Below are positions 2,376 through 18,172 of a stretch of DNA of 21,848 nt, piece by piece. The notes beneath the pieces were generated by a model. It had not been told where the DNA came from, did not search any database, and was given only the letters and a program-made list of their open reading frames with translations. Each line of letters starts with the position of its first letter. The stretch's first letter is position 1. Origin of the DNA: a virus; IMG/VR virus record IMGVR_UViG_3300013132_000293, positions 1 through 21,848 of that record; one strand, 5' to 3'. A program made the position numbers and the translations under genes.

Positions 2376-3713
2376 TCAGCGGTGGACGATCACGAGCTCG
2401 TTGTCCGTGCCCGGAGCTTCCTCGATGCCCGATGCGTAGTCCGTGCCCGTCAGGTCGAAGCTCGCATCCCACACGTTGATCCCGTCGCGGTCCGCGTCAG
2501 CGAGGCCGCTGAACACCATGCCGGGCATGATGAAGTCGAAGCCGTTCTGGTTCTGCGTGCTCGGATCGTCGTAGGCCCAGGTGGTCGAGCCGGGGCCGAC
2601 CGCCCAGATGCGCCCACGGATGGGCGTGCCGGCGATGAAGCGCGAGACGAAGGCGAACTCCGTCGAGTTGGCCATTTCGTCCGGGTTGAACTTGCCCTTG
2701 GGCTGGCGCGCCGTGATCTGGCCGAAGCCGACGCCGTTCGCGTCGAGCGAGTTCTCGTGGAAGATGATCGAGTTGCCGCTCTCCACGTCGATCTGGTTCA
2801 GCGCGCCCGTGATGACGCCCGTACCGCCGCCGTCCGAGCCGTACTTGTTGGCCAAGGTCGGGGCGTTGATGGCCTGGCGGAACGTCGCGCGCGTGCCGAG
2901 GAACGTCGGCGGGAACTTGTGCGCTTCGTTCGGGCTCGTCGGGAGCGCCACGTCGCCGTAGTCCACCACGACGCCCGTGAAGTTGCAGACGACCACGATC
3001 GCGTCGCCGTGCCGGAACTCGAAGCGGAAGTTGCCGACCGCGCCCTTGACGCGCAGCCGCTTCCCGTCCGCCCAGACCGAGATCGAGAGCGAGGTCAGCG
3101 TGCTCGTCGTGGCGTGGGCCGAGTTGGGCGTCCAGCCGAAGCACTCGGTCACGTTGCGCGAGCCGAGACCGAACACGCTACCGCTGGTCGCGCCGGTGAT
3201 GTTCGTGCTCACCCAGGCCGTGCTGTTTGGCTGGTCGATGAAGACCGCGCCGTCATCCGCGAATGTGTCGCCGATGACGATGCCGGTGCCGCTGGTCGAG
3301 CCAGTGACGGACTCGCCGTGGCGCAGCGGGCCGTTGTCGGTCGTGATCGCCCCGGTCAGGTCGTAGGCGTACACGTTCGAAGACTCGGACAGGTGCCCGT
3401 AGCCGCAGCCCTGCATGATGCGCGTCAGGTGCGGGCGCATCGCCGAGGTCACGCCCGCGCCCGAGACGTACGTCGAGTTTGCGTGCAGCTCGAAGCTGAA
3501 CTCGATGTCTGCCAGGGACTTGCCCGGGTAGATGTCGGGCATGTCCGTGAGGGACAGGCGCAGCGTAGGCCGGTCCACGCTGGTCGGCCGGACGGTGAAC
3601 TTGGCCGACCGCAGCAGCGGAAGGCAGTCCGACGCGCCCGGGTCCGAGTGCGTGCCGCGCGTCGATTCGACGACGACGCCGACGACGCGCTTCTGAGAAA
3701 GGGAGATGGCCAT
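2376..3713 (-). CDS. Tail tube protein, second copy
   Basis: A 445-residue protein starting MAISLSQKRVVGVVVESTRG. It aligns along its whole length with the next upstream gene (3735-5105). Shared blocks in the same order are MPDIYPG, LRHGE, GDTFADD, TGATSG, DGKRLR, the YGDVA-PT region, PPTFLG, FNPDE, MVFSG, DRDGIN, DASFDLTG and PGTDNE. The Gly/Ser/Thr-rich beta composition and the place between the tail terminator and chaperone genes fit a major tail tube protein, probably of the Phage_tube_2 type. The tube forms the DNA channel of the tail. A GAGG lies about 10 nt before the ATG. Which of the two copies is the main tube subunit cannot be told from sequence. Confidence 0.75.
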   Translation of the reverse strand: MAISLSQKRVVGVVVESTRGTHSDPGASDCLPLLRSAKFTVRPTSVDRPTLRLSLTDMPDIYPGKSLADIEFSFELHANSTYVSGAGVTSAMRPHLTRIMQGCGYGHLSESSNVYAYDLTGAITTDNGPLRHGESVTGSTSGTGIVIGDTFADDGAVFIDQPNSTAWVSTNITGATSGSVFGLGSRNVTECFGWTPNSAHATTSTLTSLSISVWADGKRLRVKGAVGNFRFEFRHGDAIVVVCNFTGVVVDYGDVALPTSPNEAHKFPPTFLGTRATFRQAINAPTLANKYGSDGGGTGVITGALNQIDVESGNSIIFHENSLDANGVGFGQITARQPKGKFNPDEMANSTEFAFVSRFIAGTPIRGRIWAVGPGSTTWAYDDPSTQNQNGFDFIMPGMVFSGLADADRDGINVWDASFDLTGTDYASGIEEAPGTDNELVIVHR

Positions 3714-3734: not shown

Positions 3735-5105
3735 TCAGCGGTAAATGAGCGTGATCTCGTTGTCGGTGCCCGGGATCTCGGTCGTGGCCGAGCTGTCGTA
3801 GTCGCCGCCCGTCAGGTCGAACGAGGCGTCGAAGATGTTGATGCCGTCACGGTCGCCGTCGGCCATGCCGGAGAACACCATGCCCGGCGTGATGATGTCG
3901 ATGGAGTTGCCGTCACCGGTCGAGTTCGAGCCGAAAAGCGCCTTGCCGCGAATCGAGCGGCCGTTGATGAAGGCGTTGATGAACGAGAACTCGGATTCAC
4001 TCACCTCGTCGGGGTTGAACGAGCCGCCCGGCTTCCTGTCGGTGATGTAGGCGAAGGAGTACCCGCTCGAACTGAGCGAGTTCTCGCGCATGACGATGTT
4101 GTTGCCCGACGAGTATCGGACGTTGTTCAGGGCACCGACGTTGACCGACGAGCCCGTGTCCTTGCCGTACGTCTTCGACCCGTCGATCTCGCGGAAGCGG
4201 ATGTCCTTGCCGAGGAAGGTCGGCGGCAGGTAGTGCGACTCGTTCGCGTTGGTCGGCATGGCCACGTCGCCGTAGGATTCGACGATGCCGGTGAACTTGA
4301 ACTCGGCGTGGAGCACGTCGCCGTGGACCATGCGGATCTCGAAGTTGCCCATGCACCCCTTGAGGCGCAGGCGCTTCCCGTCGAGGTACGCCTCGAGCGA
4401 GATCGTCTCCATGAGGTTGAGGTCGCTCTGGAGCTTGAGCGCGACGACGACGGTCGTATCGCGGGTGGGCGCGGTGCCGCTCGTGGCGCGCCCGGACGTT
4501 GCGCCGGTGATCGTGATGGCACCGGTGCCAGCCGTTCCGCTCGTCTCCTGGACGCAGAGCAGGTCGTCATCGGCGAAGGTGTCGCCCACCATGACGCCCG
4601 CGATGGGGCCGCCCGTGGTGGCGTAGGCAACGCTCACCGTCTCGCCGTGACGCAGGGCCGAGCCCGTGCCGCCCGTCTGGTTGGCGAAGGTGTAGATGCG
4701 GGGCGAACTTGCCACGGCTGCGCCAGTCGGAGCCGAGGTGGGCGAGCCCTGGTTCGAGACCTCGACGTACCCGCACGCGCGGATGAGGTCGGTCCACACC
4801 GGCGAGGTTAGGGTCGCGCTGCCGGCCGCGTTGCTCGGCACGCCGCCGATCTCCGCGACGAACGTAAGCTCGGCGATGGCCACACCGGGGTAGATGTCGG
4901 GCATCCCAGTCAGCGAGAGGCGCAGAGTCTCGCGCTCGACCTTCACCGGCTCGAAGCGCGTGATCTTCGCTTCGCGGATGGTCGGGATCGCGTCAGCCGC
5001 GACGTTGGGAGCGCGGAAGATGCCCCGGTCGATGACGTTCGGCGTGCCGCCCAGGGCTTCCAGATTGCACGCGACGATCCGACGCTTCGAGAGTGAAATG
5101 GCCAT
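3735..5105 (-). CDS. Tail tube protein, first copy
   Basis: A 456-residue protein starting MAISLSKRRIVACNLEALGG. The opening (lysine/arginine-rich start, then a variant of ExxxGTP) is typical of siphovirus tail tube proteins. It shares its full domain layout with the downstream paralog. The regions that differ most are the middle insertions after residue 80 and around 180-215, while the C-terminal 100 residues are the best conserved. It starts 9 nt after the stop of the preceding small gene, and 21 nt separate it from the paralog, so the pair is cotranscribed. At about 450 residues both copies are longer than many tube proteins, so one or both could carry an extra surface domain. Confidence 0.78.
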   Translation of the reverse strand: MAISLSKRRIVACNLEALGGTPNVIDRGIFRAPNVAADAIPTIREAKITRFEPVKVERETLRLSLTGMPDIYPGVAIAELTFVAEIGGVPSNAAGSATLTSPVWTDLIRACGYVEVSNQGSPTSAPTGAAVASSPRIYTFANQTGGTGSALRHGETVSVAYATTGGPIAGVMVGDTFADDDLLCVQETSGTAGTGAITITGATSGRATSGTAPTRDTTVVVALKLQSDLNLMETISLEAYLDGKRLRLKGCMGNFEIRMVHGDVLHAEFKFTGIVESYGDVAMPTNANESHYLPPTFLGKDIRFREIDGSKTYGKDTGSSVNVGALNNVRYSSGNNIVMRENSLSSSGYSFAYITDRKPGGSFNPDEVSESEFSFINAFINGRSIRGKALFGSNSTGDGNSIDIITPGMVFSGMADGDRDGINIFDASFDLTGGDYDSSATTEIPGTDNEITLIYR

Positions 5106-11176: not shown

Positions 11177-11217
11177 GGTCTAGGGGTACCTTGGGGAGGT
11201 GTCCACGGGTGCGGGTC
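11177..11217 (-). promoter_or_regulatory. Candidate promoter B, upstream of the protease gene
   Basis: On the minus strand TGGACA (11205-11200) is followed by a 17-nt spacer containing CTCCCCAAGG and then TAGACC (11182-11177). The protease ATG is 11 nt further on. TGGACA matches the sigma-70 -35 box at five of six bases, while the -10 match is weak. The 29-nt stretch 11189-11217 matches 13533-13561 at 25 of 29 positions. The far end just touches the last codon region of the portal gene. Confidence 0.42.
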
Positions 11218-13501
11218 AGGCGTCGGGAAGCACCGGGGCAGTCAGGCACCGGCAGTTGATGACCTGCCCGGCGGGCGCGCCGTCGTCGTGCGGCTTGCGC
11301 ATCCCGTTCGAAAAGCTCTCCCCGATGACCGCCTTCTCACCGTCGATCTGGTGTCCGTCGCGCACGAGGTCATCCCCGGCGGTGATCCACTCGTGCTGCA
11401 CGACACCGCCCGATCGGAACTGCTCGACCCGCGCCGCGTTGGAAGCGCCGGCAGACTCGGTTCGGGCAATCATCATCGAGCGCGTGCCGAGTTGGTCGCG
11501 CAGCGCCTGGAGCGATCCTTCCAGGTCTTCCAAGACATCCCGCACGCGGTCGGCCAGCGAAACAGCCGTGCTCGTGCCATCCGCCATCGTCTGAGCGAGC
11601 ACGCGCTTGATGCGCGCCGCGACGATGGACGTTGGGCCCTCGACGATCTGGATCTGTTTCCGCGCCATGTAGCGCACGACGGCGGGGTGTGTCGCCTTGA
11701 CCAGCTCGCCGCCCACCGCCTTCTGCGCAGCCTTGGCCGCGTCTTCGAGCGCGCCCGTGATCGCGCCCTTGATGGCGTTCCACAGCTCATCGCCCCACGC
11801 CTTCTGTCCGGTCACGAGGAGCCGCTCGAGCTCGTCCTCATCGATGCCGCGCACGGTGACGATGCCGGCCTTGCCTAGGTGCGGCACGAGGTCGAGCTCG
11901 CGCGCGTAGGCGTGGGTCGCCTTGGACCAGTGCGCGAAGGTCGGGAGCAGGTCCCACTCGCCGACGCTGCGTGGCTCGATGTCATCCGGCTCGGCGCTGT
12001 CCGCTATCTCGCGCAGTTTGGCGAGCTGAGCGTCCACCATCTCGTGGAAGACCTTGCGGGCCCCGGCGGCGATGCGGTTGTCGGCGCGGCGGAGGCGCTT
12101 CTCCTCGGCCTCGGCGATGGCGCGCCGCCGCGCGTCGGCTGAGCGCGTGACGGACTTCTCCGGCTCCTCCGCGTCGGCCTCGGGCGCGTCCGGCTCGCCC
12201 TCGGGATCCTCCTCGGCGTCCGGGTCATCCTGTTCCGGGTCGGCCTGGTCGAGGCCGGCCTGAGCCGCGTCGGCAGGGCGCAGCGACCCGCCGATCCAAC
12301 GCTCGCCCTCGGGAACGCCCTCGATGGAGATGCCGGCGATTCGCGCCGCTTCGTTCGTCGGCACCCCGAGCGCCACGAGCTTCTCCATGCGCCCGATTTG
12401 CGCGTCCGCGTCCTCGCGCATCGCCGCCGTGCTCGCGTAGTCGAGCTGCACCTGGACGCGCGCCGCCTCGGCAGGCAGGCGCGGCATGAGCTGCGTCGCC
12501 AGCTCCTCCACGATGAAGTCGGCGCGCGGGATGACCGTGTTCTCGTAGTAGACCCGACGCAGCTCGCGCAGGCTCGAGCGGTTCGCGTCCTCGAGGTGCC
12601 CAAGCATCACGGGCGGCACGCCGAAGGTCCGCGCGATCTCGTCGCGCTTCTCCCGGCGCATCTTCTCCGCCTGCATATCCACCGGAGACCAGCTCGTCTG
12701 AGTGAACTGGACCCCGGCCGGCAGGATGATCTTCTTGCGGTCGTTCTGCGGGCGCGAGTGGTTCTGATGGATGCGGGCTTCGAGCGCCTCGCGGTCCTTC
12801 GGATCCATCGCCTTGTTGTCGTGCGTGAAGACGCCGCCGATCTGGCCGCCGTTCTCGACCAGGCCGTCATCGAACGCCTCGACGCGGAAGAGGTGATCGG
12901 CGGAGCGCCACGCGGCCTGCATCGGCCCGCATCCACGGAACGGGTCTGCCGGGTCGGGCCAGTAGACGTGGACCACGGCGTGATCAGGGAACTCGATCTC
13001 GGCGTTCCCGTTGCGCGTCTTCCATGCGACGGGAACCGGGTTCTGCCCCACGCGCACCGGCTCGACGAGCTCGTCCCGGATCGGCCAGATAGCCTCGGGC
13101 CACTTGCCCGACGAGATCGGATCACCCCCCTTCGTGGCCAGGAACAGGAAGACGCCGCCCGAGTAGTCCAGGGCGGAGCTGATCGCGCGGCGGAACTTCG
13201 CCCCGCCCATGAGCGGGTTCGGGCGCTCCAGGAGCTGCCAGAGCGGGTGGGCGCGGTCGGCCTCGGTCTCGGCGTCGTCGGCCAGCGCGACCCGCCACGG
13301 GATCGCGGCGAGGCTGTCCGCGTTGACCCGGACGCAGGCGTAGACGATGGGGCTCTGGACGTGCGGATGGGTCAGGCGCGCCGACTGGGAGAGCCGGATC
13401 GCCTGGCCGAAGAGCCGACCTGAGCCGAACGAGAACTCACCTGCGACCTTCTCGACGTAGGTCTCGCTCGCCATTGCCCGGTAGTCCGGGCGCTTGTCCA
13501 C
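11216..13501 (-). CDS. Portal protein fused to a MuF-like head morphogenesis domain
   Basis: A 761-residue protein. Residues 1 to about 410 form an HK97-family portal, with HVQSPIVYACVRVNADSLAA near 47-66, DYSGGVFLFL near 112 and TFGVPPVMLGHLEDANRSSL near 292-311. An acidic linker (418-449) follows. A second half of about 310 residues ends with the MuF pattern: RSMMIARTES (674-683), a His-containing core and INCRC (748-752). The portal forms the DNA entry ring. MuF proteins are minor head proteins packed inside, sometimes carrying effector domains, but no toxin domain is visible here. The start could be GTG 13501 or ATG 13474. A GCCCGG/CCGGGC hairpin (13476-13491) lies between them and neither has a good ribosome binding site. 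Confidence 0.85.
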   Translation of the reverse strand: MDKRPDYRAMASETYVEKVAGEFSFGSGRLFGQAIRLSQSARLTHPHVQSPIVYACVRVNADSLAAIPWRVALADDAETEADRAHPLWQLLERPNPLMGGAKFRRAISSALDYSGGVFLFLATKGGDPISSGKWPEAIWPIRDELVEPVRVGQNPVPVAWKTRNGNAEIEFPDHAVVHVYWPDPADPFRGCGPMQAAWRSADHLFRVEAFDDGLVENGGQIGGVFTHDNKAMDPKDREALEARIHQNHSRPQNDRKKIILPAGVQFTQTSWSPVDMQAEKMRREKRDEIARTFGVPPVMLGHLEDANRSSLRELRRVYYENTVIPRADFIVEELATQLMPRLPAEAARVQVQLDYASTAAMREDADAQIGRMEKLVALGVPTNEAARIAGISIEGVPEGERWIGGSLRPADAAQAGLDQADPEQDDPDAEEDPEGEPDAPEADAEEPEKSVTRSADARRRAIAEAEEKRLRRADNRIAAGARKVFHEMVDAQLAKLREIADSAEPDDIEPRSVGEWDLLPTFAHWSKATHAYARELDLVPHLGKAGIVTVRGIDEDELERLLVTGQKAWGDELWNAIKGAITGALEDAAKAAQKAVGGELVKATHPAVVRYMARKQIQIVEGPTSIVAARIKRVLAQTMADGTSTAVSLADRVRDVLEDLEGSLQALRDQLGTRSMMIARTESAGASNAARVEQFRSGGVVQHEWITAGDDLVRDGHQIDGEKAVIGESFSNGMRKPHDDGAPAGQVINCRCLTAPVLPDA

Positions 13502-15400: not shown

Positions 15401-15493
15401 TCAAGCCCGAGCGGTCCGGTGTTTCATGCGGCCACCAATCAAGGCCTGTCGCGGGATCTCCCCGCGCACCATGCCGGACCGCTCGGTGTTCAT
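15401..15493 (-). CDS. 30-residue peptide gene between small accessory genes
   Basis: The frame starts at ATG 15493, overlapping the preceding stop as ATGA, and ends at TGA 15401-15403. The peptide starts MNTERSGMVRGEIPRQ and is basic. A perfect 13-bp inverted repeat spans most of the frame, so the peptide may be secondary to an RNA structure. Translation is suggested only by the overlap. The next gene has its own strong ribosome binding site 8 nt from its start, so it does not need coupling. Confidence 0.38.
   Translation of the reverse strand: MNTERSGMVRGEIPRQALIGGRMKHRTARA
15407..15486. repeat. 13-bp inverted repeat enclosing a nested hairpin
   Basis: CCGAGCGGTCCGG (15407-15419) is the exact reverse complement of CCGGACCGCTCGG (15474-15486). 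Within the 54-nt gap, CGCGGG (15450-15455) pairs with CCCGCG (15461-15466) across a 5-nt loop. Together they predict a long structured RNA in the accessory transcript. It could regulate or process the message, or be a palindromic protein site. Confidence 0.55.
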
Positions 15494-15831
15494 CGAATCC
15501 CCCGCGTCTCGTTCCACTCGCGACGCTTCTCCTCGGTCCGCATTGCGTCCGGAAGCCACCGCGCGACATCCTCTTGCAGAGCCAACAGCCCCGAGAGGAT
15601 CCACTTCCGCGCTTCCGTCTCGTTCCGAGTCGTGCGGCGCTCGTCCCCCTCGTCGTACTCCATCGCCTCCAACGCGGCCTTGAACGCCATGCGCTGCCGG
15701 GTCAACAGCACCAGCACGAGGTCGCCCTCCTTGATCGACGGGCCGACATCCGGCGGCTTGCGCTGCCGTAGACGGAGCGGCGGAATCTGCCCCGTGCGAC
15801 GCATACCGCCGCTGGATCGGTCGAGGTTCAC
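15490..15831 (-). CDS. Small helical protein downstream of the co-chaperonin, unknown function
   Basis: A 113-residue protein starting at GTG 15831, which overlaps the co-chaperonin stop as GTGA. A longer in-frame start at 15918 would overlap that gene with an unlikely leader. After a basic N-terminus it shows a short beta-hydrophobic segment (EGDLVLVLLTRQRMAFK). A Glu/Arg-rich, helical remainder follows, with ARKWILSGLLALQEDVARWL. It ends in TRGIR. Tight coupling suggests it is made in proportion to the co-chaperonin. No family was recognised. Confidence 0.6.
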   Translation of the reverse strand: MNLDRSSGGMRRTGQIPPLRLRQRKPPDVGPSIKEGDLVLVLLTRQRMAFKAALEAMEYDEGDERRTTRNETEARKWILSGLLALQEDVARWLPDAMRTEEKRREWNETRGIR

Positions 15832-16682
15832 GCGGCACTCGGCTCCGCCCCGGGCAGTATCACCCCGCGAATGCATGGGTACTCGCGGATCATCAGCACG
15901 CGGCCCGGAGCGTTCCACCCCTCGTCCATGTCGATTGGCTGAGCGTTCGGCGCGGTGCCCTTCGCGATGGCGCGATCCCCCACCTTGACGATGTGCGGCG
16001 CGCGGCCCATCCGGTCACCGTCGAGGCATCGAGTGATCGTGTTCAGCCCCGGCCCGCGCTTGAGCACCTGAACCGTCCAAGTGTTCTCGCGGCGCTCCTG
16101 GTCGCGGTCCGGGCCAAGGTGGATCCGCAGCGGCCGGCCCGACAGGTCCACGAGGCGCGGACCGGCGCGGACGACGTGCTCGCTCTGCCGCTCGTCCATC
16201 CGCACGAGTAGCCAGTCCTGCACCGGCTCGAGCCGATCAGCCCAGCCCGGCACGTCGTACCGCCCGCGAATCGACACCGGCACGGGTCCGGGCGCGGGTG
16301 GGAGTTCCTCGTCGCCATCTTCGGCCTCGCCCGCGCCGGCCACGGTCGCGATGACCGAGCCGTCGCGGATGAGCTTGTAGCCGTACCCCGTCGGCGTCGT
16401 TTCGCGCGGCACCAGCGGCAGGAAGTCGCCCGCGCCGACCTCGAACAGGACGCGATGCCCGACCTCGCACGTCGTGGGCATCCGCGTGCGCCCGTCATCG
16501 GAGAGCTTGCCCGGACCGCGCTGCACCACGAGTCCCGTGCGCGAGCTCGGCTTGATCGTCCCGGGGATCTCGATGCCGCCCTTTGTGCGCGCAATCGGCG
16601 GGTCCAGGCGGATGAGGATGAAGTCCTCGTGCAACGTCACGTGCGTCTCGAGCTTTTCGTAGCTGATTCCGACAGTAGCCAT
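15828..16682 (-). CDS. Tandem two-domain GroES-like co-chaperonin
   Basis: A 284-residue protein with two GroES-fold domains. Domain 1 (about 15-115) has the first strand HEDFILIRLD and a GroES-like mobile loop with GGIEIP (35-40). It continues with VVQRGPGK (52-59), a CEVGHRVLFEVGAGDFLPL core and YKLIRDGSVIATV at the end. A Pro/Glu linker leads to domain 2 (about 150-276), which has DRLEPVQDWLLVRMDE, KRGPG (208-212), IVKVGDRAI (231-239) and VLMIREYPCIRGVI. Domain 2 lacks a GGI-type mobile loop. GroES caps GroEL, and T4 gp31 is a phage equivalent needed to fold its capsid protein. By analogy this may cap host GroEL for virion proteins. A 164-nt gap to the terminase gene precedes it, and no clear ribosome binding site is seen before ATG 16682. 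Confidence 0.82.
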   Translation of the reverse strand: MATVGISYEKLETHVTLHEDFILIRLDPPIARTKGGIEIPGTIKPSSRTGLVVQRGPGKLSDDGRTRMPTTCEVGHRVLFEVGAGDFLPLVPRETTPTGYGYKLIRDGSVIATVAGAGEAEDGDEELPPAPGPVPVSIRGRYDVPGWADRLEPVQDWLLVRMDERQSEHVVRAGPRLVDLSGRPLRIHLGPDRDQERRENTWTVQVLKRGPGLNTITRCLDGDRMGRAPHIVKVGDRAIAKGTAPNAQPIDMDEGWNAPGRVLMIREYPCIRGVILPGAEPSAA

Positions 16683-16846: not shown

Positions 16847-18172
16847 TCAGAACTCCACGACCTCGAAGCCACGGCCCGCGTCCTTCGCCGCCCACGCCGC
16901 AAGCATCAGCGCGCACACACAGTCGTCATGCTGGCCGTTCGGCGCGCTGGTCTTGACCGCGCCGGCCTCGGTCACCGTGAACTCGAACGCCTCAAGCTCC
17001 TCGATGCCCTCCGGCCACAGCTCGTACCGGGGCAGCGCGATCTCGCCACGCTCGCACAGGAGCGCCAGGTTGTTCACCAGAGCGGCCTTGCTCGCCGCCG
17101 TGAACGGGTATCCGTCCGCGCGAATGCCCGCCTCGAGCAGCGCCTCGTATACCGGCTCGCCCGCGCCCGTCGAGTCTACGAGCGTGTAGCAGTGCCCGAA
17201 GCGCTCCGTCGTGGCGTGGATCCGCGAGACCTGGACCTTCCAGTCCACGCGCGTGAACCGCTCGACGTGGACAACCCGCCTCGCCCGAGCGTCCATCACC
17301 ACGAGCACCGTGTAGTCGTTCACGCGCGCGAGGTCGAGGCCCGCGACGTAGCGGACATCCGGCATCGGTGCCGACCACGCATCGACCGTCGCAAGGTCTC
17401 GCACGTTGCGGAACACCGCACCCGCTCCCTCGATGAACTCGGCCAGGTACTCCTGGCGGAAGATCGCCTCGGGGATGCGCTGGCGGATCGCCTCGAGCTC
17501 GGCAGGGTCGATCTTCGGATTCGTGACAGTCGGGCTGTTCCACGACTCGAAGCCTCCGAGCTTTTTTTGTCCCATGCGCCACGCCTCGTAGAACCAGCCC
17601 TTGCCCTTGGGGCTCGATATCAAGAGCGCCCAGCCCTTCTTATCGAGCAAGCGCGCCGAGAGGAACCTCTCCCATGTGTCGGCCTTGACTCGGCTGGCCT
17701 CGTCGATGATGAGGAAGTCGAGGCCCTCGCCGAGCAGCGAGACCGGGTTATCCGCCGACTTCCCGCGCAGCTCGGTGAAGCCGCCCCCCATGTTCCGCAC
17801 GATGATCGTCCGCTCGTGCTCGGACACCCGCACCACGAACGGCATGAGCTGGCTCTGGAAGATCAGGGCCAGCTCGCGGAACACCTTGTCGCAGAGGTCG
17901 TAGAACGGCGCGGCGATCCACCCGCGACGGAACGTGTCCGGCGGGCTCGGCTGGAGCGCGGCGGCGACAGCCTCGCCGGCGGCGCATGTCGTTTTCCCCC
18001 ATCGCACCCCGCAGGCCAGCACGCGCCTCGGCGCAAGCGACTCATGCACCGGACGCTGCCCCGCGTGCGGCTCGTAACCGATGCTCCGGAAGATGCGGAA
18101 CTTGTCGAGCGGATCCGGCGCGCGAATCAGCGCAGGGACACTACCCATCCGCGCACGACGCTTCGCCAGCAC
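16847..18172 (-). CDS. Terminase large subunit
   Basis: A 441-residue packaging motor. The ATPase domain has Walker A ACGVRWGKTT (53-62), with Walker B LDFLIIDEAS (151-160; D157, E158) and coupling motif LLISSPKG (183-190). The nuclease domain has an RNase H-like acidic set: VAGLDLARVNDYTVLVV (D280), TLVDSTGAGEP (D333) and QHDDCVCAL (D416 and D417). It cuts concatemeric DNA and pumps it through the portal. The start could be GTG 18172 or ATG 18148. Both have poor ribosome binding sites, and the longer one is given. It lies 66 nt after the small subunit. A GC hairpin follows its stop without a T tract. Confidence 0.92.
   Translation of the reverse strand: MLAKRRARMGSVPALIRAPDPLDKFRIFRSIGYEPHAGQRPVHESLAPRRVLACGVRWGKTTCAAGEAVAAALQPSPPDTFRRGWIAAPFYDLCDKVFRELALIFQSQLMPFVVRVSEHERTIIVRNMGGGFTELRGKSADNPVSLLGEGLDFLIIDEASRVKADTWERFLSARLLDKKGWALLISSPKGKGWFYEAWRMGQKKLGGFESWNSPTVTNPKIDPAELEAIRQRIPEAIFRQEYLAEFIEGAGAVFRNVRDLATVDAWSAPMPDVRYVAGLDLARVNDYTVLVVMDARARRVVHVERFTRVDWKVQVSRIHATTERFGHCYTLVDSTGAGEPVYEALLEAGIRADGYPFTAASKAALVNNLALLCERGEIALPRYELWPEGIEELEAFEFTVTEAGAVKTSAPNGQHDDCVCALMLAAWAAKDAGRGFEVVEF

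Follow-up and report, generated by a model that had tools for sequence, protein, structure and literature searches.

A phage gene next to the terminase gene encodes a co-chaperonin with one canonical GroES domain and a likely, strongly diverged second one

The GroES lid of GroEL is a seven-fold ring built from identical single-domain subunits, and the T4 protein gp31 assists GroEL in folding the T4 capsid protein. A gene in an IMG/VR viral record of 21,848 bases (the whole stretch analysed, here called the window) was described in an initial annotation as encoding two successive GroES repeats in one phage protein, and we asked whether both repeats are present and how such a chain could act together with GroEL. 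The underlying ORF is real, as had been claimed, but it lies on the minus strand: the region forms a single open frame of 284 codons, read from position 16682 down to 15828. Its codon-position GC (0.72/0.50/0.87) resembles that of the TerL, portal, and major capsid protein (MCP) genes of the same phage, and the coding-like pattern continues across both halves of the ORF. A contig of 29,349 bases, IMGVR_UViG_3300014720_000126, carries the window sequence at about 99.98%. GroEL was found neither in the window nor in this longer copy. The features discussed below are collected in Table 1.

Table 1. Coordinates of the co-chaperonin gene, its parts, and its neighbours in the window
Feature	Residues	Position	Strand	Characteristics	Basis
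Co-chaperonin gene, two GroES-like domains (second one likely)	1-284	15828..16682	-	ATG at 16682, TGA ending at 15828; 284 aa, about 31 kDa	
Domain 1, Cpn10/GroES	14-115	16338..16643	-		PF00166, phrog_3188, alignment
Mobile-loop motif	33-40	16563..16586	-	TKGGIEIP, canonical	sequence and alignment
Linker	119-150 (~32)	16233..16328	-	acidic and proline-rich, net charge about -5	composition
Domain 2, diverged, likely GroES-like	151-277	15852..16232	-	without family match	hhalign, alignment, model
Extended loop of domain 2	165-202	16077..16190	-	at mobile-loop position, without GG[IL]	alignment, model
Terminase large subunit (TerL)		16847..18172	-	immediately upstream of co-chaperonin	phrog_2
Next gene after co-chaperonin		15490..15831	-	113 aa, no assigned function; GTG start	

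Judged by its sequence, domain 1 is beyond doubt a complete GroES domain with the docking motif intact. Residues 19 to 86 exceeded the cut-off of the Pfam Cpn10 family (PF00166), with 33.4 versus 21.1 bits and an E value of 4.7e-8, every NCBIfam GroES match of the 284-aa protein fell within residues 14 to 87, and phrog_3188, annotated as co-chaperonin GroES, matched the same domain. With GPG at 56-58 and VGHR at 74-77, the loop, GPG, and VGxR of domain 1 aligned with those of 17 GroES sequences, and its mobile loop, GPG turn, VGHR, and last strand matched viral, plasmid, and host GroES in the alignment. Of the further viral GroES proteins related to domain 1, all 24 turned out to be single-domain proteins of 91 to 122 aa, counted from the first possible start.

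The second repeat is likely only. Nothing between residues 137 and 279 was recognised by Pfam, PHROG, or NCBIfam, and domain 2 searched alone against Pfam at an E value of up to 10 gave no match, so that it stayed below the PF00166 cut-off which domain 1 had passed. The GroES elements nevertheless follow each other in the correct order in domain 2, as the initial annotation had stated for both domains: GPG lies at 210-212 and VGDR at 234-237, and the MAFFT alignment (A3) spans the first to the last strand. The succession of a strand, GPG, and a VGD motif was found in 4 of 20,000 shuffled versions of domain 2, the form of the motif having been set after the sequence was seen. Scored with a plain HMM, the domain 2 core reached 4.5 bits, and a few of 2000 shuffles scored higher. 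Profile-profile comparison was more telling. With hhalign and a small GroES profile from which domain 1 had been left out, domain 2 scored 23.2 in local mode (exceeded by 1 of 500 shuffles) and 14.6 in global mode (0 of 500). Against a broad profile built from 32 GroES sequences, planctomycete paralogues included, the scores rose to 31.2 and 21.1, respectively, and domain 2 surpassed all 500 shuffles (maxima of 19.3 local and 11.8 global) and all 629 decoys, which were segments cut from long ORFs (maxima of 23.9 and 13.4).

We also modeled the structure of the protein. A single-sequence AlphaFold prediction of the entire 284-aa protein was uninformative (pLDDT 30.8). When the alignment supplied for domain 2 consisted of GroES rows, AlphaFold returned a GroES-like barrel with a pLDDT of 67.7 and a pTM of 0.63, the core strands being near 80, and a Foldseek search with this model placed GroES and T4 gp31 (1g31) on top in the PDB and among viral models, the probability of the match to GroES being 1.00. 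Since GroES rows had been supplied as the alignment, the model is partly circular and indicates compatibility with the fold rather than independent proof of it. Taking the profile-profile scores and this model together, we consider it quite probable that the protein has a second GroES-like domain; with neither a match above a family threshold nor homologues, the assignment is likely but unproven.

The two domains differ in the region by which GroES contacts GroEL. The GGI loop is confined to domain 1, as noted initially, and domain 2 carries no GG[IL]. The suggestion that domain 2 has no mobile loop did not hold, since the segment that links strand 1 to the following strand is in fact longer there (38 residues, 165-202) than in domain 1 (22 residues, 28-49), and only the contact motif is missing. 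Parts of this stretch had a pLDDT below 50 in the model. The roof region is enlarged in domain 2 as well as the loop.

A search of IMG/VR proteins with the whole protein, domain 2, the portal, the ParB-like protein, and the MCP retrieved only the identical contig mentioned above. Domain 2 had no homologue beyond this contig. TerL relatives with 52 to 58% identity turned up in about 17 of the 393 Planctomycetota genomes searched and may point to a planctomycete host, but portal relatives in Planctomycetota reached at most 29% identity. No TerL relative in viral contigs or Planctomycetota had a GroES-like neighbour, and no GroES was found near two portal relatives in Planctomycetota. The matches of domain 2 in the 393 genomes were weak, and those inspected were R-rich reading frames or short matches, which we took as chance. 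One planctomycete groES within a 768-aa frame turned out to be an ordinary host gene embedded in a long open frame.

The loci compared yielded some observations in their own right. Beside their usual GroES genes, Planctomycetota genomes also carry a family of divergent GroES paralogues in which the stretch after GPG is extended (about 18 to 25 residues, often with EPWK) and an FFRKAAVEI segment is conserved; considered as a source of domain 2, this family was rejected, as on its own it fails to match the domain. At two planctomycete loci the TerL-like gene (52 to 58% identical) has a large primase- or helicase-like gene after it instead of a portal gene, and such loci may be parts of satellites or of degenerate prophages. 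Two other loci have a tandem pair of TerL-like genes downstream of a ParB/DNA-methyltransferase fusion gene.

On the minus strand, the order of genes is TerL, the co-chaperonin, the 113-aa protein, a dNMP kinase-like protein, a ParB-like protein (phrog_5931), a portal-MuF fusion, the head maturation protease, and the major capsid protein, followed by head-tail and tail genes. The GTG start of the 113-aa gene shares four bases (GTGA) with the TGA stop of the co-chaperonin gene, an arrangement as in translational coupling. The portal fusion is a single 761-aa ORF (11216-13501) that joins the portal to a Mu F-like head morphogenesis protein. Further on, two adjacent large genes (2376-3713 and 3735-5105) encode products that start alike (MAISLSKRR and MAISLSQKR), both end in DASFDLTG, and match no family; they are probably paralogous tail proteins.

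The initial annotation placed the co-chaperonin gene beside packaging genes, and it does lie directly after TerL in a structural operon, but this location should not be regarded as unusual, since several other phage groES genes were seen to adjoin TerL, portal, or capsid genes. Such genes lie near head or packaging genes in Xanthomonas phage PBR31, Alcaligenes phage QDWS535, DSL-LC04, and Roseobacter phage CRP-902, and siphovirus B8b has a GroES gene in its tail module (PMC4294664). The GroES proteins of these five phages belong to the family of domain 1 and have a comparable genomic setting, but at about 107 to 150 aa they leave no room for two full domains, unlike the 284-aa protein.

Among known co-chaperonins, the closest in layout are plastid Cpn20 and Cpn23, in which one chain holds two GroES-like domains, as is likely for the phage protein. 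The analogy to Cpn20 drawn in the initial annotation is fair at the level of layout, and the top solved-structure match by sequence was indeed the tandem Chlamydomonas chloroplast Cpn23 (PDB 7ekq), but both Cpn23 domains match domain 1 and neither matches domain 2. In the alignment, both domains of Cpn23 can be recognised as GroES, each has a GGI or GGV loop, and they lie close together, whereas the phage protein has the contact motif in domain 1 only; its domain 2 has diverged strongly, has no GG[IL], and is set off by an acidic linker of about 32 residues. T4 gp31, a phage-encoded GroES counterpart that was among the best Foldseek matches, differs in being a single-domain heptamer. With Cpn20 the problem already arose of reconciling two-domain chains with the seven-fold symmetry of a chaperonin, and mixed or even-numbered rings have been discussed (PMC5780408).

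Another long phage protein invites comparison. The product gp096 of Cellulophaga phage phi18:3 (NC_021794, 41458-42060) has 200 aa, is annotated as co-chaperonin GroES, and belongs to phrog_13932. Its clear Cpn10 half is C-terminal (116-198), and its N-terminal half looks GroES-like by eye, yet is not significant against GroES profiles. One gene separates gp096 from terL, and the other member of phrog_13932, a 187-aa protein of MW202828 (3896-4459), is also one gene away from TerL. Phage phi18:3 additionally encodes a separate single-domain GroES, gp080. Like the window protein, gp096 combines one clear Cpn10 half with one divergent half near terL, but in the reverse order, the divergent half coming first. 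No sequence relation between gp096 and domain 2 was detected. It is possible that gp096 is a tandem GroES and hence an already deposited, earlier example.

How would such a protein work? Our preferred reading, to which we assign a probability of roughly 0.6, is that of a phage co-chaperonin laid out like Cpn20: domain 1 would bind to the host GroEL, and domain 2, a diverged GroES-like subunit, would probably not dock. The intact docking motif and the location in a morphogenesis operon without a GroEL of its own suggest that the partner would be the GroEL of the host. The GGIEI loop of domain 1 would dock on the apical domains of GroEL, and domain 2 would occupy a ring position or lie on the dome without docking by a GGI-type motif. 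The resulting lid would either have fewer contacts per chain or form a ring mixed with host GroES, and by analogy with T4 gp31 it may help GroEL to fold phage capsid, portal, or tail proteins. If domain 2 is indeed a barrel, it could be a lid subunit within a mixed or even-numbered ring, or be held outside the ring on the acidic linker; capping GroEL with fewer subunits, as proposed in the initial annotation, would be one possibility among several, and the altered chamber proposed there is likewise hypothetical.

In a different explanation, domain 1 by itself is a working phage GroES and assembles into the usual lid of seven subunits, and domain 2 is an appended domain, GroES-like or other, that stays outside the ring on the flexible linker and either recruits a client (capsid, portal, or terminase) or decorates the dome. 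An acidic, proline-rich linker of this length would let domain 2 sit apart, and the missing docking motif and the enlarged loop and roof are in keeping with such a role; a graft that binds clients would, on the other hand, have no need to score as GroES-like from end to end, and we regard this explanation as somewhat unlikely. It is also conceivable that domain 2 is a beta-rich domain of other descent whose GPG and VGDR resemble those of GroES by chance. The absence of a family match and of homologues and the low confidence of the single-sequence fold agree with this, as does the weak direct similarity between the two domains (BLASTP E value of 0.015; 81 of 4000 shuffles reach as high a score, p about 0.02). 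What makes a chance resemblance quite unlikely is that the profile-profile scores exceeded every shuffle and every decoy in both local and global mode and increased, from 23.2 to 31.2 and from 14.6 to 21.1, when the GroES profile was broadened. The strong divergence and the lost contact motif could finally be those of a functionless, decaying duplicate, but the 127 codons of domain 2 are open and show a strong codon-position bias, and an operon with a four-base gene overlap leaves little space for dead DNA; decay is therefore most improbable.

We conclude that the protein is a genuine and unusual phage co-chaperonin whose second domain is likely but unproven. A wider proposal, which we put forward tentatively and consider possible at best, is that asymmetric tandem co-chaperonins have arisen independently in phages, encoded next to the terminase genes, and that a docking GroES domain fused to a non-docking lid subunit would break the seven-fold symmetry and change the chamber for phage proteins; the protein in the window and gp096 of phi18:3 would then have been invented separately. 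Long phage entries annotated as GroES, such as those of phrog_13932, are worth checking for a hidden second domain. If the preferred reading is true, this phage protein, which pairs a docking domain with a non-docking partner in each chain, would offer a natural way to ask how many loops must dock for a lid to work, and whether phages remodel the GroEL chamber to suit their virion proteins.
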